This document shows, piece after piece, positions 20,652 to 58,709 of a stretch of 64,000 nucleotides of DNA. Within the stretch, counting starts at the first letter, position 1. Every line of letters begins with the position of its first letter. Under the pieces are notes generated by a model. It ran no database searches. It saw nothing but the letters and a program-made list of their open reading frames with translations, and had not been told where the DNA came from. The position numbers and the translations under genes were made by a program. The DNA is from Allomyces arbusculus. Lineage: Eukaryota; Blastocladiomycota; Blastocladiomycetes; Blastocladiales; Blastocladiaceae. The stretch is taken from contig JADHYV010000005.1 of assembly GCA_027604705.1 (NCBI GenBank), positions 62,001 to 126,000 on the forward strand, given 5' to 3'.

Positions 20652-22366
20652 ATGAAGGCGAGCCGCATGCTCTCACTTCTCGCCCTCGCGGCGCTCGTGT
20701 TCCTCGTCATGGCGCACGATGCCACAGCCGACTGTGGTTCGCGCCGCGTGCGCAAGGAAATTCACGACCTGACGCCGAGCGAGATGCAGAGCCTCGTCAA
20801 TGGCCTGAAGACGCTCTACAGCAACGGCGTGGGCAAGTATTACGTACGGCTCTCTCCCTTGTTGTTCATTGCCCATGATGTCCGCATTCCGGTGCTCACA
20901 ACGCTACCTGTTCACTCATGATCAGGTCGACATGCACGTCAACATGAACACGGATGCGCACAATACGCCGCAGTTCTTGCCGTACCACCGGCTCATGGTG
21001 TGGAAGTTTGAGGCGGAGCTGCTCAAGGTCGCGCCCGGGGTACGCGCGTTTCCGTTGCCATAATCTCGCGCATCGAAAAGCTCATCAATGATTTTCGACG
21101 ACGTAGCTGTCCGGCCTCCCGTACTGGGACGCATCGTACCAGGCGAGCAACCCAGCGTCGTCGTTTGTCTTCCGCGAGGACGTGTTTGGTGCCGCAGCCA
21201 ACGGGTGCCTGACAGGCAGTTTTGCGGGTTTGCCCAGCACGGCGTCGGGTATTGCCGGGTGCGTCAAGCGCAGCCCGCAGCCCAACTTTACGCTCTACTC
21301 GCCTGAGCTGATTCTCGGGACCATGACCGGGTCCGACTCGTACGCGGCGTTTGAGCGATCGCTCGAGTACGGGCAGCACGCGTCAGTGCATAACTATGTT
21401 GCAGGCAACATGGGCAACGTGCTCTTTTCGCCGTCCGACCCAAGTACGTGTTGATTTTTTGTGATTGCGGTTCTTTGGTTCGGTTGATTGACAGTCTCTC
21501 ACACTTTGTAGTTTTCTGGTGCGTCGATCCTGCGCGGAAGTGTTTTGGTTTGTGTCGCACCTGCTCACCTGTACATGTTCATGCGCGCTTGCAACAGGCT
21601 TCATCACAGCGCCGTCGACTACTACTGGGCCAAGTGTACGTCTTGATTTGATTTTGCTGTCACGCTCCTGCATTATGGAGGGCATTGAACTGACCGAATT
21701 GCAACAGGGCAGGGCTTGAACAACAACGCTAACTACAACAAGTACAATGGCCAGCACAAGGGCCGCGACGTGTCGCCGAGCAACGTGCTCGCCGACCAGC
21801 CCGTGTCGTTTATGCTCGACTACTGGACCAACATGTGTTACCAGTACCAGGACCCGATCAACGCGCCGTCGGGCAAGGCGCCGTTTGCGCTCGGCGCCAA
21901 GGGTGACACGCCGTCGCCGACGACCACCGGGTCGGCATCGCCTACCGACACGAACGGCAGCAACTCGACCGCGTCGGGTAACGCGACGGCGACCACGTCG
22001 GGCGCGCCCTCGGCCACGGCCACGCCGGTCGCGCAAAAGAACATTTCAATCCCGTCGGGTTTGACGGACGAGTTCATCAAGCAGTTCCAGCTCAATTCCA
22101 CGCAAGCCGCGCGCGTGCACGACATGGTCGTGTCGTTTGTGAACCACTTGAACGAGCAGATTGCCGCTGGGCAAAAGGTGCCGACGCTCGCCGACTTGGC
22201 GATGCTCTCGGCGGGCGACGTGGGCGCGAACCTGCCGGGTGGTTCGAACGCAACGCCGACACCGACGCCCGCGCACAGCGGTGCCGGTGCGCTGACGGTG
22301 GCAGGTGCTCACGTGGGTGGGGCGGTTGCGGCTGTCGTTGCCATGGTCGCTGGGATGCTGCTGTGA
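20652..22366 (+). CDS. Secreted tyrosinase-domain copper oxidase, copy 1 (448 aa)
   Basis: Type-3 copper phenol oxidase. Residues 1-26 are a signal peptide, with cleavage probably after DATA. Copper site A is H68, H76 and H85 (DMHV, DAHN, PYHR). Copper site B is H193, H197 and H220 (QHASVHN, then IFWLHHSAVD). The C-terminal 150 residues are Thr/Ser-rich, then end in a short hydrophobic tail (AAVVAMVAGMLL), suggesting a GPI signal or membrane anchor. Exons: 20652-20843, 20926-21039, 21107-21443, 21512-21518, 21598-21635 and 21708-22366. The fourth exon is only 7 nt, yet it supplies the invariant IFW before the copper-binding HH. The next gene is a tandem paralogue that lacks three of these introns. 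Likely roles are melanin or wall phenol chemistry; substrate unknown. Confidence 0.88.
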
Positions 22367-23363
22367 GATCTGTGCTCGGGTCGCGTCGGTGATGTTTTGC
22401 GTGCCACCGTCCGGATGCTCCGCATTCTTTTTGCTTCCGCTTTTGCGCGACAGTTGCATGTTTGTATCGGACCCAGCAATCAATTTTCGAGGCATCCATC
22501 ACCGTCGTTTCTTCTCCAATCTTCGGGATGCATGCGCACGTCACGCACGCCAGCCCTTGCGTGAGCACGCTCCGTCGTGCCTCTGTCAACCTCTTGCAGC
22601 GTCACCTCGTCGCTTCGCTGGAAGCCCTTGCCGCCTCTTGCCGCCTCGCAGTTCCTGTTGGGGGGCGGTTCGAGTCATTTGCATGTGACCAAGGACGCCG
22701 GCGCGGTGCCGTGCCGCTGCGCTGCCCCCACCGTGCCGACCAATCCGGCCGACCTCACCACCATGCCGCAGGCCGCTCCGCGTCCCAGCGCATTGCTGTC
22801 AGCACCGCACCCGCTTGACCTGACCAAGAATGACCGGCCCCGTCGGCTACTGCCCTCGCCCGTGCAAGTGCGCCCGCGGCGGAGCCAGCACCAACGTTGG
22901 TGCCGCCGCTTGCTCCTGCACACGCACCGTTGAACGGCTGCTTCGCCCCGGCCCCAAGCAATGCGTCCCGTCGAGGATCCCGGCGGGCCCTCGCACACGC
23001 GGGACCTATTTGACTTTTGCTGGCATGGGTCCGGGGCATGCGACGCGATGCGTGCCGCATGCCGCACCGCCAGCGCGTGATTTATGCGGAACGATCAGCA
23101 TCGCTGAGCGTCTGGTCGCGACCGTGGGGGTGCCACCGCACGCACGGCCCTCGATGCGTCCGCCCGCCCGCCGCGACCAGCGGCGACAACGGCGACGGGA
23201 CCGTGCTGGGCGCAGTGCCATGCGCGCGGGGACATAACCCGCGCGCCCGGACGAGCGTCCATGTATAAAGTCCGGCTCCATCCGTGCGTGCCACGAAGCG
23301 ACCCACGTCCACTTTCCCACGGCCGATCTCGCGCCGATTCAGCAGCACGCGCGCAACGCAGCC
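22367..23363. other. Intergenic between the tyrosinases, with Cys-rich fragments
   Basis: About 1 kb. Plus-strand frames around 22690-22930 read PCRCAAP and later YCPRPCKCARGG and ACSCT, which look metallothionein-like, but no solid start, stop and splicing model emerges. The downstream part serves as the promoter of tyrosinase copy 2. Confidence 0.35.
23264..23269 (+). promoter_or_regulatory. TATA box (TATAAA)
   Basis: Perfect TATAAA 100 bp upstream of the ATG of tyrosinase copy 2, in the context ATGTATAAAGT; transcription would start at about 23295. Confidence 0.6.
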
Positions 23364-24914
23364 ATGGCTCACCACCGCTCCACACGTCGTCCACCCGGCG
23401 CCGCGGCCGCACCCGTTGCCGGTCGTCGTTCCGTGCGCCGCCCCCGCGCCGGCAGCGCGCTGGCGCAGCTCTCGAGCCCGGCATTCCTGGCACAGCTTGC
23501 GATCCTGGCCGTCATGGCTCTCGCCACATCGAACCTCGCCTATGCGACCTGCGGCAGCCGTCGAGTCCGCAAGGAAATCTACGACCTGACGGCCGCCGAA
23601 GCCGCGAGTCTCGTAGGCGGATTGAAGACGCTCTACACCAATGGCGTCGCCAAGCGGTTCACCGACATGCACGTCAGCATGAACACCGACGCTCACAATA
23701 CGCCGCAGTTTACGCCGTTCCATCGCGCCATGGTCTGGCAGTTTGAGACGGAGCTGCTCAAGGTCGCGCCCGAAGTGCGTTGTTCGCTTGCGTGCAGGCC
23801 TGATTTGACGCGTCTGGTTCGAATTCTTTGCGTGGTCTGCTCCAAACTGACGTTTCTCGCTGCGCTATGTAGCTGACCGGCCTTCCCTACTGGGACGCGA
23901 CGTACCAGGCCGACGACCCGGGCTCGTCGTTCATCTTCCGCAACGACATGTTTGGCGCCGCCGTCTCGGGCTGCCTGACAGGTAGCTTTGCCGGGATTCC
24001 CAACACGGCGTCGGGCCTGCCGGGGTGCGTGCGCCGCGACCCGCGGCCCAACTTCACGCTTTACTCTTCGACGCTGCTCGCCAACGCGCTCACGTCCGAG
24101 ACCTCTTACTCGTCGTTTGAATCCACGCTCGAGTACGGCGAGCACGCGTCAGTGCACAACTACGTGTCGGGCAACATGGGCAATGTGTTGTACTCGCCGT
24201 CGGACCCCAGTATGTTTAGACTCCCCGCAGAAGCGCGTCGTTTTTGCACGCCTTTGATGCTGATTACTCAAACCTAATTCCGCAGTTTTCTGGGCGCACC
24301 ACTGCGCCGTCGACTACTATTGGACGCGGTGGCAGGCGCTTAACAACGGCGCCAACAGCAACAAATACGACGGATCGCACAAGAACCGCGCCGTCTCGAC
24401 GCGCGACGTGATTATGAACCAGACCGTCGCCGACATTCTCGACTACGCCAACACGCTCTGCTACGAGTACCAGCCGCCGCAAAACGCGCCCGCGGGCAAG
24501 GAGCCGTTCCCGGCCGCCGGCACGTCCGACAACAATGGCAAAAAGGTGTCGGACTCGCTCGCGACGGCCTCAACCGATGGTCCGTCCCGGTCGCCACGCG
24601 CGCGCGCCGTTTTTGCGCCATCGCCGCTCACGCCCGAATTTGTCACCGAGTTTGGGATTGACCGCGATGGCGTCGAGCGCGTGCACCAGCGCGCTGCGGC
24701 CACGGCCAAGCTCTTGCAGGACCAGATTGCGAGTGGGATCGAGGTGCCGTCCATGGAGGACCTCGCGCGGCTGGCGATGGCGGATGGGCCGCTGGTCCAG
24801 GCTGGGGAGGAGAAGCCGAAGAACAATGCAGCCGCACGCGTTGCCGGCGTGCAGCTCTTCAGTGCCGTCATGACGCTCTTGGTTGCGATTGCGTTGTCGC
24901 TGTCGGCGTTCTAG
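23364..24914 (+). CDS. Secreted tyrosinase-domain copper oxidase, copy 2 (458 aa)
   Basis: Tandem paralogue of the gene at 20652. Exons 23364-23774, 23873-24209 and 24286-24914; the middle exon is 337 nt, exactly as long as its counterpart in copy 1. After an unusually long Arg-rich lead of about 42 residues comes a hydrophobic segment (43-61) ending in NLAYA, then TCGSRRVRKEIYDLT as in copy 1. All six copper ligands are present: H103, H111, H120 (site A) and H228, H232, H255 (site B, IFWAHHCAVD). The C-terminus ends in a hydrophobic tail (VMTLLVAIALSLSAF), again suggesting a GPI or membrane anchor. The long basic leader could mean a type II anchor or a start further downstream than annotated. 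Confidence 0.88.
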
Positions 24915-47990: not shown

Positions 47991-49977
47991 ATGGCGGTCA
48001 ATCCGTCGTCAACGGCGCTCAAATTGCCAGGATTGACCCAGCAACAGGCACGTACTCTTTGCTGCAACGTCGATGATTCCATGCCATTGATGAACACTCA
48101 TCGCTCGGCCTCGCGCTTCGCAGGTGCGCTCGTCCTGGTGCAGGACGACTTCCGCGTCAAGATGTTTCTCGACAAGCCGAGGTTGCAGTTTGCGGCCGCC
48201 TATCAGTCCAAGGTGCGTGCACGCACCAACCAGACGAGTCGTCCTTCCATTTCGCTGACAGAATGGTTGGTTGCGGTCCCCCTACCCGACCACCAGATCC
48301 AGCGCATTTCGTTTGCTCCGCGACAAGTCAACCAGGACCCGCCATTCTTTTTCCCGACGCACGGGTTGGTCTTTCACGTCGCTGACCCCCACACGCACGA
48401 GTCGACCGTGTGGCTGAACGTGACCAAGATCGAGTCGACGGACCACCGAAAATATGCGGTATACGGCAACCTGTGCGAGTCGCCCGCCGCGCTGCGGCCG
48501 AGTCAACGGTCGCAGCCGCATGACCCTGACTCTCTCTACGTCATCAACCTGACTGGGGATGCGACCCAGTTGGTCCCGCTGCTCGCCGTGGTATGCCTTT
48601 GCTTCTCCACCCGAAAACGGAACAGTATCTCTCCTGAAAGTAATTTGCTAACGCTGTGTTTACCCGTCGTAGAAAACCGTTTTCGGGTTTGCGATGCTCT
48701 TGCCGAGCGACGAAGGCTCGCGGTACTTTGAAATCGGACCTGAAACGGTTGTTCAACGGCTCGAAGACTCGCAGGTGTGACCTTTGCAAGGTGCTAGGCG
48801 AGCACGTCCGTAGTATACTGAACCAATTCTGCATCAATCACGTAGCCGAGCGTGCCGATCAAGTCGGGCCAAGAAGGCCGGACCTACATCAGCAGTCTCG
48901 GCCCGGACATGAAGAACCTGACGCTGTTTGGGACGGTGGTTGCAGTCTCGGACAATGTACGTTTGGCCGGAGCGGCATGCACGAAACGAAGCGGTTGCAC
49001 CTCTGACCTTGCTCGCGCGTCCATCTCCAAAGCGGCCGCACGAAGTGGGCGGCCAACGCGTCAACCGTGTCGCGGTCAAGCTTCAAGACGACTCCGGTTC
49101 GTGGAGCACCACCTCGATATCATCTTTTCTCGCGCCGCGCACGTACTCACGCCACACATCTCGAACAGGCGTCTACGACATCACGGTCTGGGGCGACATT
49201 GTGAAGCGCGCCGCTAAGCTGCTGCCGGGTCAGCTCGTTCTCTGGTGCAATCTGTCGACAAGCCACATGAAGGACGGCATCAAGTTTTTCCTCAACGCGC
49301 AACCCACGGCGCACGCGACGCTGACCATCGTCTCGACGATCCCGGCGCTGCTCACGTCGTCGTGCTTGCGCGACTCGGGCCGGATCGTGGACATGCCGGG
49401 CCGCACGTTCACTGCCGTTGCCGTGCGGATCACGGCCATGCCCAAGGCGCCGTACACGCGGTTGAGCCGTACTTATTTTGATTGTTGGCAATGTTCCCGT
49501 TCTTCTCCACCGTGCGGCTCACGACGTTGCCCCTTTTCTTTCCGCCCAGACACGACGTGTCTCAAGCCAATCCACCTCAGAGACGAAATGTGGCAGTGCA
49601 CAACGTGCAAGGAGTATATTTTGCCGGGCGACCTGCGCAAGGTGCAGAGCATTTACTCGCTCGTGTGGAGCATTTCGGACGGCCACGCTAACGCGCAGTG
49701 TCGCGCGACCCCCACGGCGTCGTCGGTACATTTGTGCGTCGATTTTGTTCGCAAACGGGTGTGCCATCTCACGTGTGTCGGTCTGTAGGATATCATTGGC
49801 CTCCCGGCGAGCGATTTCGATCGCCTCAGCCAACAGCAGCAGCACGATTGGCTGGCGCAGCTGGTCGGGCGCCGACTCTTGTGCGGGATCATTACCGTCA
49901 GGGCCCCGCGGCGGCGCGAAGGAATGGCGGGCCCGTCGCACTATTTCCGCATTGAAATGGTGTCGCCGTGGGAGTGA
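47991..49977 (+). CDS. MEIOB-like RPA1-related OB-fold protein (about 489 aa)
   Basis: Exons: 47991-48051, 48124-48590, 48673-48774, 48846-48956, 49033-49096, 49169-49468, 49550-49725 and 49789-49977, all in phase. The first intron is 72 nt and open in frame, so it may be retained. Three regions can be matched to animal MEIOB. A diverged N-terminal OB-like part runs to residue ~210. A middle OB fold follows (YISSLGPDMKNLTLFGTVVA, then QRVNRVAVKLQDDSG and VYDITVWGD). The C-terminal OB has a zinc ribbon (TTCLKPIHLRDEMWQCTTC) and DIIGLPASDFDRL. In animals MEIOB binds ssDNA with SPATA22 in meiotic recombination. It could instead be a diverged RPA1; the ribbon spacing and order favour MEIOB. Confidence 0.68.
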
Positions 49978-50095: not shown

Positions 50096-52641
50096 TTACA
50101 GCGCGCATGTATCATTGTTACAGAACCGCTCTGCCTCCGGGTCCTTCTCCTCCTTGACCCCCGCGTCGTACACGACCGACTTGCCGAGCGTCGCGCGCAC
50201 ATCCTGAATCTTCGCAATCGCCGTGTCATACTGATCCTTGGTGATCGCCTCGTACGGCATCTGCGGGTACGCCCCGAGCTCCATGCGCGGCAAGAACGAG
50301 ACCCCCTTGAGCGCGTACTGGTAGTACTGCAGCGCGTGTGCGAGGTGCGGGCCCTCCGTCTCTGGGTCAAACGTGACCGTGCACGACACTTGGTTATCGG
50401 ACCAGTGCTTTTGCAAAAACGCGGCCAGGTTCAGCTGCTCCCACATGCTCACGTCCTTGAGCCCGCGCACGCCCGGACCAAAGTCGATCGGGAACTCGAC
50501 GACAAGTGTCGAGTCCTCGGACCCGACGGCGGGCTCGACCTTGTACCCCATCTTGATCAGCGGTTGCACGAGGCTCGAGTGCCGTGAAATTCGCACGCGG
50601 CGAAGACAGTACCGCGATTCGGGGTAGTGCATCCCGGGGGTCGCACCGGCGAGGATCGAGACGGTGCCGGAGGGCTTGACGGTCGTGGTTTTGATACTGC
50701 GCGGGATCGCGAGCCAGTCCGAGACCTACACATCGGTCATAACGTGAGTGAGATGAACCTCACCCTTCACCTCGAAGCTTTGAACACGCCAACGCACCTC
50801 CTTGTCGGTGCTTTGCAGCACGTCGTACCCGCGCTCGCACCAGTCGCGCAATTCCTCGAGCCCGCGTGCCGACACAAACTGGGCAACGCCGGAAATTCCG
50901 CATCCGATGCGTCGGTTGCGCAGCATGACGCGGTTCGTCTTGGGCCAGTGCGTCTGCGCGAGCGTGACGGTCTTGGCATATAGGTAGGCCAGCTTGAGCG
51001 TTTCCTGGAAATCTGCAAAGTCCTTGTGATTGTTGGGGAAGGTCTCGACGAGACAGCACAGCTCGTGCGACTCGAGCGTCTGCTCGAGGCACGGGTTCCC
51101 GCCGCTCGCGCGCCAGTCCTTGTTGTCCTGTTGATTCACATCGGTTAGCGAGAACAATCATGGCGAGACAGGGATGGAGAAGCAAGAGAGAAGGGACGAA
51201 CCGGAACCCCATTCATGCGGCCAAATTGGCGCGCATTGTCGAGCCAAAAGAAGCCCGGCTCGCCGTTAATCCGCACGCGCTCGCACACGTCCTTGTAATC
51301 CATGCCGACCTGGCAAAACACCGAGTTGTTGGACGTCCACCCAAACTCGGCACGATGCGGGTTTACCTGGTAATTCTTCAAATCAATGTACTCGGCGTCG
51401 TTGGCGTCGCCAAACGCAATCTCTGCCGTGCGCCGCACATTGCCGGCCACGACACACTTGCCAATCAGGTTCATGAGGTCGACGATGCCCGTGACCGACA
51501 GCGGCTTCCCGCAGTGCGCATCGAGCACGCCGCGGATCGCGTCGTGCAGCTGCCGCAGCGGCTCCGGGCCTGACGAGAGACCGCCAAAGCCCTTGATGGG
51601 CAAGCCCGCGGGTCGGACAAGACTGTAGTCGAACTCGATGGTGCCGCGCTTCTGGTCAAAGTACGAGTCGATCAGGGCGCCGACCGAGTCAACCCACCCT
51701 TCGCGCGAGTCGGAGATGACCATGGTCGACGTCGGCTTGTTGGGGTTCGGGCCGTGTACGGTGCTCTTGCGGTGATTGGCGCCCTTGGTGTCGAATCCGA
51801 CGCCGACGCTGGAAACGGTTCGGAATGGGTCAGGGATCGGAACGCATCAATCGCATCGGCCAATCCGAGAAGTAAGACCGCGTACGCACCCGAGCATGCT
51901 CGCATCCATCAAGAACGTGAACGGCTCCGACGGCACACTCGTCGTTTCCCACATGCCGGCCGTGGAAATAAACGCGCAATTGTTGAGCGCCGCAAACAGG
52001 CGGCGCGTCTCGGTGATCGGCGACCCCATGGCCCACAAACCACGGCCCGGCGGCAAAAACTTCATGTGGAAAATCCGGTCGTACATGCGCTGCGCCGTCG
52101 CCTGCGCCTTGCGCGCGTCCCATCCGAGATGGTGATGCTCGATCCACTGCCGCTGCAAGTTGAACGTGCCGTTGACGACGCGCGCGACCGTCTCGTACCA
52201 CTGCTCGTTCTCGCCGTTGGGCTTGAGCCGCGAGTAGGTGCGGTAGTAGACGAGCTCGCCGAGCCCGTCGAACCCGAACGGTGGAGGCACATTGGCGTAC
52301 TTGGCGAGAAAGGCGTCGGTCAGCTTGAATGGATGCCCGGCACGCGCGTAGTGGTTGAAGCCCGGCAGCGGGCCTGGGTTCGGATGCACGCTGCTTGGGC
52401 CGCTCGCTGTCGTTGGGGCAGTCGTCGTCGTCTTGGTTGGTGTCGCCGTGGCCGCTGAGTCACTGGTGGCAGCGCGGGCCGCGTTGCTTTGCGACACACT
52501 GGTGCTGACTTGGCGGACGGCGGTAGCCGCGGCCGGAGCGCTGCCAGCTCGAGCCCAATGCGCCGGGGCAAAGTGCTGCTGTCGAGTTGCTGTGGCCAAC
52601 CGACCGGCGGCGCCCACTTGGCGGAGGAGCGTGTGCGACAT
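50096..52641 (-). CDS. Class II (adenosylcobalamin-dependent) ribonucleoside-triphosphate reductase, 770 aa
   Basis: Reduces NTPs to dNTPs using a thiyl radical made with adenosylcobalamin; monomeric RTPR type. Exons 52641-51890, 51808-51208, 51127-50798 and 50725-50096. Key residues: C222 (NNCAFIST), N462, C464 and E466 (GGNPCLEQTL), C475, and a C-terminal CX4C pair (C763, C768, CNNDTC). The C464-C475 gap of 11 and the CX4C spacing equal those of the Lactobacillus leichmannii enzyme (C408/C419, C731/C736). The first ~60 residues are Arg/Ser/Ala-rich with no acidic residue (MSHTLLRQVGAAGRLATATR), which looks like a mitochondrial presequence absent from bacterial forms. Four exons and host-like codon use show that it is not contamination. 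Confidence 0.92.
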
Positions 52642-53353: not shown

Positions 53354-54474
53354 ATGTCCTCGAAATCCGGCCGCCCTGGCGGCCGCACCGCGCCCGCTCC
53401 ACAACCTGCCACTCGTCCACGAACTGCCAAGCCGGCGGCGCGCCGCATGCCGCGAGCACGCGTTTCCGATTCGGAAAATTCGGATCAGGACGAAGACCAC
53501 GCCAACGACAGCGACGACGACGAGGACCGGATGTCAGTCGATGCTGACAGCGACGACGAGGACGGTAAGTAGGCGGCCGACAGTCTCTAAGATTGCAATG
53601 GACGCACGGCACTCACTCCAACGCGTCGCGGAAGCTAGGCTCGTCCGAGGCACCAAGCGACAACTACGCGGACGACGATGACGACGCGGAGGGCCCGTCA
53701 TTTGCCGAGCTCGCCGAGCAGCGCGAGCGTATGGGCAAAAAGGCGTTCACTGAAATGATGCAGGGCCAGCGTGACAAGGCCGCGGCAAAATCTGGCAAGA
53801 GCAAACGGTCCAACAAGAACGCGTATGTTTGCAAGTTGCGCATCGTTTGTCGTTTGGCTCAGCGACTCACGCCCACTTCCTCCGTTTAGCCCCATGGAAA
53901 TGTCGAGCAAGCGGCCAGTATCACGAAAACGGCAAGTTGTCGACGTTGCTGCCCCCGTACATTGTCCCACGCTCGCCTGCAACCCGAATCGGGCGACCCC
54001 ACGATTGACCAACAGCGTGCATTCTAGAAACGCCGCGACCCGCGGTTCGACAATCTGTCGGGCAAGCTCAATGAGGATCTCTTCAAAAAAGCCTACTCCT
54101 TCATCGACGAATACAAGGAGCGCGAGCTCGCCGAGCTCAAGCAAACGCTCGCTAAGACCAAGGACCGCGACGAGTCGACGCGGCTCATCCAGACAATTCA
54201 GGCGATTGAGAACCGCAAGCGCGCCGAGCGTGAGCGCGAGCTGCAGCAAAGGATCAAGCGCGAATGGCGCAAGTCGGAGGTGGAGAAGATCAAGCAGGGC
54301 AAGAAGCCGTTTTTCCTCAAGAAATCCGAGGAGCGGCGACTGCAGCTCATTTCCAAGTTCAAGGCTAAGTCGGACAAGGAGCTCGAGAAGATGGCCGAGA
54401 AGAAGCGCAAGCGCGACGCCGGCAAGGACCGCAAGTTCATGCCACGGCGGCGCGCGGGTGCGGGCGGCGATTAG
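53354..54474 (+). CDS. RRP36: RRP36 rRNA biogenesis protein (302 aa)
   Basis: Nucleolar protein of the 90S/SSU processome acting in early 18S rRNA cleavages. Exons 53354-53564, 53639-53822, 53890-53956 and 54028-54474. The N-terminus is basic then acidic (SDSENSDQDEDHANDSDDDE). Core motifs follow: FAELAEQRERMGKKAF, NKNAPMEMSSKRPVSRKRQVV, RRDPRFDNLSGKLNEDLFKK, YSFIDEYKERELAELKQTL, then KQGKKPFFLKKSEERRL and GKDRKFMPRRR. All the family blocks are present and in order. Confidence 0.93.
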
Positions 54475-56524: not shown

Positions 56525-58709
56525 TCAGTTGGCGCCGCCCACGTGTGGTGCGACTGGCGGCGCGGGCGATGCGGGTCCCGCGCCCGCGTGCGGTTTGGGC
56601 CACTCCCACTGGAACACGGCGCCGTCGCTCGACACGCTCACAATCGACCGCTGGTCCGGCGAGATCTTGACCTTCAAGATATCGGTCGAGTGGCCGACGC
56701 CGACGTGCGTCATATCGCCCTCCTCGTACCGGTAAAGCTTGACAATCTTGTCGGACCCGCCGAGCACGAAATGCATCCCGTCTTGCGTGATATCGAGCCC
56801 GTTGATCGCGTCCGACTGCGACGCCTCAATCTCGCGAATCAAGCTGCCGTCATAGGCCTCCCAATACGCGACCTTCCGGTCGGTGCCCGACGTGAGCAGC
56901 TGGTTTTCCTCGGGGTAGTAGCAGACGGCTTTAAAGAAGGACGGCGCAAAGAGCACTTGATTGCGCACGTGCCGAACCAAGTCCCAGATAATGCACGACC
57001 CGTCGGACGAGCTCGAGACACACTCCGAGTTATTTTTCCGGATCTTGATGCACGTCACGGTGCCCTTGTGCTCCTTCATCGCGTTCTCGAGCTGCTGTAC
57101 GTGTCGCGAAATCCGCCAGATCCGCACTTGCCCGTCCTCACCGCCCGAGACAATCCGGTAGGTCCCGTCGCGGCGGTCGATGTCAGTCACGGCGAGCGCC
57201 GTGACACACTTCTTGTGCGCATCGTGGATCTCAAATTGCAGCCGGCCCGACTGCGGCCCAAACGCGCGAATCTTGCCGTCGGTCCACCCGGTAATCAAGG
57301 ACCGCCCGTCCTTTTGGAAGATAATGCACTTGGCCTCGAGGTTCGGCAGCCGAATACGCAAGTACTCCTGCGCCGACTGCGCGCCCCAGATCCGGATATC
57401 CGTGTCGGACGCGGTCGCAAACACCTCGGACGAGTCAGGCGGGAAGGCAATGTCGTTGACGGGCGAGTAGTGCCAAGTGATCACGCGCGTCGAGTCCATG
57501 GTCGCCACATCGACCGCGTAAATGTTGGACTGCGACGTGGCCGCCATGATGTGCGTGCCGCGCACCGGGCAGATGGACGTGACTTTGCCGTCGAGCTTGG
57601 TGCGTCTCGACACTTTGAGCCCGTGCAAAGACATGTGCGCGAGGGTCCCGTCGCCGGCGCCGATGAGGATGCCTTGGCCGTCGCTGCTCAGCGCGCAGCT
57701 GATAATGCCGAGCGAAAAATTGTCCTATCACGAGATGATGCGCGAAACGTGAGATCCCTGTCCGTGAACCGAATCCATGGCGGGAAGCTGCGTAGCGAAT
57801 AGATACCTTTTCCTTTGGCGGCCCCGAATTCTTAAACAATTTGGTCGCGACCGCGACCTGCAACAGATCTCCTGTCGTCGTGCCGCAATACATGAACTCG
57901 TCCTGGTGGTCGACCGTAATACACTTGACAATGCGCTTGATCGTGCCCATTTGACAGTCGGTCGGTTTCACTTTACGCGCGGCCACATTCACCTCCCACA
58001 CGCGCAAGTTGCAGTGCCCGCCCGTGACGAACGCGAGGTCGTCGTTGTTGAGGTATGCCAGGCACAGCGCGACCCCCGCCGAGTCCTTGGACGCCGGCGC
58101 ACCGCAAATCGCGTTCCCGCGCTCCAAGTCCCAGACAATCACAGAATTGTCGTCTTCGCCGCCGAGCGACGCGAGGTACAAGTCGTTGGGCGAAAAGGCG
58201 AGCGCCTCAACCTTGACTTTGTGCAGGGACAGGTGCTTGATGGCCTTGCGCGTCGCAAAATCCCACAGGATGATGTCGGCCTACGGAGGGTCGAGGAGGG
58301 CATCAGTCGCGCATTCCCAGCGGCGGGTTTGCGCTGTCGCGCGCGAGTGAGGAAGTCGAGCGAGCGCACCTGGAACCCCATGTGCGTAACTTGCCCCGAG
58401 GCAATATACCGGCCGGACTTGCTGACGGCCAGGCAGGTGATCAGGTTCGTGTGGCCTTGCAAAAACTCTTGCTCGCCCGTGACCAGGTTCTGCAGGACCA
58501 CGTTCGACCCGAGCGGGTATATGCGATGCGACCCAGACGGGTGCCGCAAGAGGCCCTGCGGGACCGTGCCTAGTCCCCGGAGAACAGCGTCAGCAGCCGG
58601 GGCGGCGTTGGAAGGCGTTCTGCACCACGGCGGCGATGGCGGCGGCGGTACCGGAAAAGCCGATAATGGATCGCAGCTTGAGCTGCTCGGGCTGGTGCTC
58701 GGTCATCAT
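56525..58709 (-). CDS. CFAP52: CFAP52 (WDR16) cilia/flagella WD-repeat protein (643 aa)
   Basis: Axonemal protein located inside the doublet microtubule B-tubule. Exons 58709-58652, 58569-58370, 58280-57807 and 57724-56525. Exon 1 (MMTEHQPEQLKLRSIIGFSG) joins to TVPQGLLRHPSGSHRIYPLG, the CFAP52 start. Clear orthologue motifs: EFLQGHTNLITCLAVSKSG, YIASGQVTHMGFQ, LSLHKVKVEALAFSPNDLYL, GWTDGKIRAFGPQSGRLQ, TSGTDRKVAYWE and THVGVGHSTDILKVKISPDQ. The length is close to human CFAP52 (about 620 aa). This gene is strong evidence that the organism makes a motile flagellum. Confidence 0.95.

Follow-up and report, generated by a model that had tools for sequence, protein, structure and literature searches.

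A predicted monomeric class II ribonucleotide reductase with a mitochondria-like N-terminal leader in the fungus Allomyces arbusculus

Gene structure and catalytic residues

The class II ribonucleotide reductase (RNR) gene is located on the minus strand at positions 52641–50096 of the window, i.e., the 64,000-nt stretch of DNA analyzed here, and its model consists of four exons encoding 772 amino acids. Exon 1 (51890..52641, 752 nt) contains the leader, the RNR_Alpha domain, and C222. Exon 2 (51202..51808, 607 nt) encodes the remainder of the insertion domain and the start of the barrel, exon 3 (50798..51127, 330 nt) the active-site loop N464-P-C466-L-E468 and C477, and exon 4 (50096..50725, 630 nt including the stop) the end of the barrel and the C-terminal CX4C tail. 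Introns 1 (51809..51889, 81 nt), 2 (51128..51201, 74 nt), and 3 (50726..50797, 72 nt) are all of the GT-AG type. The gene model and the GC content uphold the coordinates, strand, four exons, and host-like composition given in a first-pass annotation of this DNA. When frames of the window were scanned with Pfam, six of the ten gave a match, to ATG2, SET, glycosyltransferase 2, CDC24-type OB, WD40, and, marginally, tyrosinase. The CDC24-type OB domain (48922–49785), an RRP36 frame (54028–54474), and the WD40 repeats (56528–57724) are neighbors of the RNR gene. Judged from its sequence, the class II RNR gene is nuclear, intron-bearing, and eukaryotic. Elsewhere in the window (21689–24911), the similar stretches NNNANYNKYNGQHKGRD and NNGANSNKYDGSHK suggest repeated tyrosinase-like genes; one of them barely reaches the Tyrosinase profile (22.8 bits, with the cut-off at 22.6), and the other has no Pfam match.

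In a profile search, the fungal protein matched TIGR02505, which represents RTPR, the monomeric adenosylcobalamin-dependent ribonucleoside-triphosphate reductase, with an E-value of 8.5e-113 and 377.9 bits (curated cut-off 340.05), far exceeding chance. A PDB search with the same protein returned a single match, the Lactobacillus RTPR (PDB 1L1L). The Pfam profiles of RNR_Alpha (PF17975), the class II insertion domain (PF21995), and the RNR barrel (PF02867) all exceed their cut-offs. RNR_Alpha covers residues 107–207 (52021..52323, minus strand; 142.5 bits). The insertion domain, which mimics a dimer interface, is present with 46 bits against a cut-off of 27 and spans profile positions 34–104 of 107.

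In the alignment with 1L1L, C222 (51976..51978), N464, C466 (51089..51091), E468, and C477 (51056..51058), all encoded on the minus strand, correspond to C119, N406, C408, E410, and C419 of the Lactobacillus enzyme. Lactobacillus C408, the partner of C466, is taken here to be the thiyl-radical cysteine, and the roles of the active-site cysteines, the finger-loop Asn and Glu, and the tail pair are likewise assumed from family knowledge. The tail pair C765-NNDT-C770 (50105..50122, minus strand) is supported by the gene model, the TIGR02505 match, and conservation. It presumably represents the counterpart of Lactobacillus C731/C736, as the TIGR02505 match runs to residue 772. All of these residues are invariant among the relatives with a letter at the site: C222 in 121/121, N464 in 123/123, C466 in 124/124, E468 in 123/123, C477 in 123/123, C765 in 115/115, and C770 in 114/114, the counts being based on 124 aligned loci that are partly overlapping or redundant copies. 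The exact spacing of the catalytic cysteines claimed in the first-pass annotation is correct, with 11 positions between C466 and C477 as between Lactobacillus C408 and C419, but its numbering (C464 and C475) is not; the C-terminal CX4C motif it described is present as C765 and C770. Finally, the alignment with 1L1L and a published rule place an apical phosphate loop at P197-P-G-R200 (52042..52053, minus strand). A G-R pair in this loop marks triphosphate reductases, according to the relevant part of PMC8365446, and by that rule the P-P-G-R loop of the fungal protein points to triphosphate substrates. Collectively, the protein is a complete monomeric class II RNR (NrdJm/RTPR), with predicted activity.

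The N-terminal leader and control N-termini

The region preceding RNR_Alpha consists of a presequence-like segment (residues 1–45; 52507..52641, minus strand), with the putative helix TLLRQVGAAGR, and an Ala/Thr/Ser/Pro-rich linker (residues 46–105; 52327..52506, minus strand) that is absent from the Psychroflexus, TM6, and phage relatives. An R-3-type site, R43-Q-V-S46, suggests cleavage after residue 45, although such a cut would follow a V rather than the F/Y/L found in RAFS, RHYA, RHLS, and RPFS. The leader is free of acidic residues through residue 60, with D61 as the sole acidic residue in the first 80, which agrees with the acid-free stretch of about 60 residues reported earlier. By a home-made measure, it combines a basic amphipathic helix, free of acidic residues and close to the N-terminus, with a site of the MPP type. 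The Psychroflexus copy (L093), the TM6 copy (L095), and one Lokiarchaeota copy (L094) have frames that open around residue 100 of the fungal protein, which thus has approximately 100 additional N-terminal residues; two other Lokiarchaeota copies have an ATP-cone-like stretch in the leader position. A start codon downstream of the leader, which the first-pass annotation had named as evidence against its reading, was sought in the sequence: in-frame Met codons occur at residue 1 and next at 186, and RNR_Alpha already starts at residue 107, so a downstream AUG start is ruled out. An unrecognized upstream exon may be spliced into the leader. The GC3 of the leader is 0.71, versus 0.88 in the remainder of exon 1, a difference counted against the presequence reading.

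The leader was compared with N-termini of other proteins from the same genome, whose compartments were presumed from their families. The first helix measure used 14 residues without an inner Pro within the first 45 residues. It gave 0.55 for the leader, 0.57 for HSP60, 0.55 for succinyl-CoA synthetase beta, 0.50 for NFS1, and 0.45 for GcvH; mitochondrial controls with weak values were MUT (0.29) and ISU1 (0.00), and non-mitochondrial proteins reached 0.50 (GMP synthase, cytosolic) and 0.38 (the class I small subunit NrdB on contig C16). This measure did not separate the control sets and was dropped. The second measure, chosen after the first had failed, took the highest hydrophobic moment of any 11-mer within the first 25 residues. 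With few controls, all from one genome and with starts picked by eye, it gave 0.64 for the class II leader, 0.50–0.75 for the mitochondrial N-termini (7/7), and 0–0.41 for the others (8/8). The mitochondrial set comprised MUT, the cobalamin adenosyltransferase MMAB on contig C21, HSP60, ISU1, succinyl-CoA synthetase beta, NFS1, and ATP synthase alpha; the other set comprised enolase, GMP synthase, IMPDH, NrdA C22, NrdB C22, NrdB C16, MMAB C12, and RRP36. Nine mitochondrial loci (including GcvH) and three of six cytosolic stretches were left out because the matched exon showed no start, or no certain one. None of the seven mitochondrial controls has an acidic residue before position 25. An R-3-type site occurs in six of the seven, that of ATP synthase alpha lying beyond a read-through intron and ISU1 being the one without; among the eight others, only NrdA C22 has one (RRVT at 47).

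Composition proved less informative. Among 682 open ATG starts in the window, 74 lack acidic residues and carry a net charge of +4 or higher across 45 residues. Eight of the 682 additionally reach the helix strength of the class II leader by the 14-residue measure, and in two the helix lies within the first 10 residues, the start of the class II gene itself being counted by construction within both figures. Moreover, the class I protein NrdB C16 (L007; G000:C16:36398-37204) has an acid-free, Arg/Ala/Thr-rich N-terminus with one bulky hydrophobic residue in the first 25 and no amphipathic helix. An acid-free, Arg-rich composition was therefore rejected as proof of import: in this genome composition alone is weak evidence, with NrdB C16 as a warning, and the amphipathic helix is the discriminating feature of the leader. 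The mitochondrial leader proposed in the first-pass annotation is hence mitochondria-like by its helix, whereas the composition invoked for it carries little weight here. The leader looks like the mitochondrial N-termini of this genome, and a mitochondrial location is predicted.

Host genome, B12 enzymes, and relatives

The genome assembly comprises 25.9 Mb in 197 contigs. Chitin_synth_1 gave 12 exon matches in six spots of the genome and none in 14 control genomes, all of them prokaryotes, so that fungi are not set apart from other eukaryotes by this comparison; the matches support a fungal host. A search for class I RNR, as the first-pass annotation had proposed, located two large-subunit genes (C1 and C22) and two small-subunit genes (C16 and C22) elsewhere in the genome. 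Class I is thus not the sole RNR of this fungus, which has two class I sets and the class II gene. A second class II copy was not found, the NrdJ query matching just this gene with 17 of 32 candidates scored.

Within the second class I set, NrdA (L002; G000:C22:127817-130534) has an intein-like stretch, with LAGLIDADG at 31.7 bits (cut-off 22.5) and Intein_splicing at 20.5 bits, under the cut-off. In NrdB (L008/L009; G000:C22:303248-304957), profile positions 95 and 96 are separated by a long insert, which opens with C-V-T-G-D-T directly after ...MENIH and in which Pfam detects no intein domain. The inserts in this NrdA and NrdB hint at a giant-virus origin of the second class I set. An NCLDV gene in Allomyces is reported in part of PMC5294986.

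Two cobalamin adenosyltransferases (PF01923) are present, at G000:C12:454182-454932 and G000:C21:146740-147459, so the final step to adenosylcobalamin (AdoCbl) is encoded. Other B12 enzymes include methylmalonyl-CoA mutase (MUT) and a MetH activation domain. Since MMAB C21 and MUT have presequence-like N-termini, the matrix plausibly contains AdoCbl; MMAB C12 apparently starts without a leader, making cytosolic AdoCbl possible as well. AdoCbl synthesis is perhaps split between matrix and cytosol. For MMAA/MeaB, one 52-bit fragment was found at the edge of contig C197, and the ArgK query had no match; a CblC search gave no match in the genome or in any of the 14 control genomes. Of the route to AdoCbl on which the earlier proposal depended, the adenosylation step and B12-using enzymes have thus been located.

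With tblastn, 1194 phage records matched, all below 60% identity. Pattern scans gave 111 viral relatives, the best 80 being kept, and five loci in prokaryote genomes: Psychroflexus, TM6, and three Lokiarchaeota. These searches yielded no further RTPR from a eukaryote. The best identities were 54–55% for Psychroflexus and TM6, 51% for the phage contig L013, and 51–52% for the Lokiarchaeota pieces, with a maximum of 55%. A first tree had 58 rows, namely the fungal one and the 57 that dereplication left from 120. In it, the fungal gene groups with the Psychroflexus MAG, the TM6 MAG, and L013 (100/97), and 27 hand-picked rows gave the same grouping (100/98); both trees include this single eukaryotic row. 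Psychroflexus as the exact sister of the fungal gene has a support of just 80/37. The phylogeny suggested in the first-pass annotation to find the donor therefore points to these three as the nearest relatives among the rows sampled. A vertical Asgard origin was rejected: with one eukaryotic row, grouping the fungus with nine Asgard rows, a group named after the first tree had been seen, gave p 8.5e-46 in the AU test.

Because three of the five prokaryote loci belong to Lokiarchaeota, the phylum of the Lokiarchaeota record G002 was searched; 59 of 227 genomes pass the TIGR02505 cut-off, and 144 of 227 have some match. Loci with monomeric class II RNR in this phylum are L094, L096, L097, L098, and L108–L136; L096 and L097 have an ATP-cone-like stretch (under the curated cut-off) and intein-like inserts. 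The relevant part of Lundin et al. 2010 (PMC3019208) describes all archaeal class II RNRs as dimeric.

Proposed function and comparison with known systems

The most probable reading, held with reasonable though incomplete confidence, is that of a complete, nuclear-encoded monomeric class II RNR whose leader directs it into the mitochondrial matrix, where it would supply dNTPs independently of oxygen and of class I. By family chemistry, AdoCbl homolysis would generate a thiyl radical on C466 and so start NTP reduction; C222 and C477 would give the reducing electrons and be re-reduced via the tail pair C765/C770 by a thioredoxin, and the product would be dNTP directly. The leader would direct the enzyme into the matrix, as the indirect evidence above suggests, and adenosyltransferase C21, with its similar leader, could make AdoCbl there. 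If RTPR chemistry and matrix location both hold, a mitochondrial dNTP supply that relies on neither oxygen nor the iron class I enzyme would follow. The fuller version, in which a B12-dependent, oxygen-independent RTPR works beside the adenosyltransferase in the matrix, so that mtDNA precursors are made on site as triphosphates and uncoupled from cytosolic class I, is put forward only tentatively.

The same enzyme could instead be a functional AdoCbl-dependent RTPR that resides in the cytosol or nucleus and backs up class I without requiring oxygen, its leader being a low-complexity extension. The genome is GC-rich with many Ala/Arg/Thr-rich N-termini; the 74 acid-free, positively charged starts, the similar N-terminus of NrdB C16, and the seemingly leaderless adenosyltransferase C12 are consistent with this explanation. 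Unlike NrdB C16, however, the class II leader has an amphipathic helix in the mitochondrial range and an R-3-type site, and such a location is considered rather unlikely. A dual location in the matrix and the cytosol or nucleus, which would provide for both genomes under iron or oxygen shortage, is favored by the two adenosyltransferases with differing N-termini and by the single class II gene matched; yet, with no in-frame AUG before residue 186, it presupposes either a non-AUG start or import of low efficiency, and it is accordingly improbable. It is highly improbable that the gene lacks a role and stems from a prokaryote or phage, as a contaminant or a recent capture. Its closest matches among the searched collections are indeed bacterial or phage, but the gene has three spliceosomal-type introns, host-like GC, and the eukaryotic neighbors described above; it keeps all catalytic residues and shares at most 55% identity with any relative found. 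Moreover, in the tree in the relevant part of Orlowska et al. 2021 (PMC8085122), the neighbors of the fungal class II RNRs are Fonticula and oomycetes.

Mitochondria are usually assumed to obtain their dNTPs by import or salvage. If a class II RNR is indeed directed to the matrix, it would be an independent mitochondrial dNTP source, and it would explain why some eukaryotes retain class II beside class I.

To date, class II RNRs have been described in early-diverging, non-Dikarya fungi (e.g., KNE69215.1), and class I RNR in all genomes analyzed, in the pertinent sections of Orlowska et al. 2021 (PMC8085122). Monomeric class II RNRs of Dictyostelium, Euglena, Monosiga, and Phytophthora appear in those of Lundin et al. 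2010 (PMC3019208), where eukaryotic NrdJ is ascribed to horizontal gene transfer from bacteria. The surprise expressed in the first-pass annotation at a class II enzyme in a fungus was therefore overstated: its presence in an early fungus is already known, and the novelty may lie in the mitochondrial address. No mitochondrial class II RNR was found in the open-licence papers searched, and a term search for "mitochondri" and "fung" gave nothing in PMC9531940 or PMC9669993. As for the cofactor, passages of PMC6557843 hold that eukaryotes make adenosylcobalamin in the mitochondrial matrix, and that RNR II uses methylcobalamin, which is at odds with the RTPR family name.

Compared by description only, the fungi of Orlowska et al. 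(PMC8085122) resemble the present one in being early-diverging, in having B12 enzymes, and in carrying this enzyme family; the sections compared make no mention of a mitochondrial class II RNR. The eukaryotic NrdJ proteins of Lundin et al. 2010 (PMC3019208) share the monomer-type insert, and the corresponding sections describe no leader. Closest by identity and in the tree are the Psychroflexus (L093, 54%), TM6 (L095, 54%), and phage (L013, 51%) proteins; L093 and L095 lack a leader, whereas the fungal protein has one. The TM6 copy (L095:2980-5907) carries an intein-like LAGLIDADG insert (40.7 bits), and its pieces are under the TIGR02505 cut-off. With the Lactobacillus leichmannii RTPR (PDB 1L1L), the fungal protein shares the domain order, the catalytic cysteines, the counterparts of N406 and E410, the G-R loop, and the insertion domain. 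Yet, its insertion domain is shorter by about 29 residues (19 vs 48, at residues 262–282), its N-terminus is extended by a leader of about 100 residues, and its gene is nuclear and contains introns.
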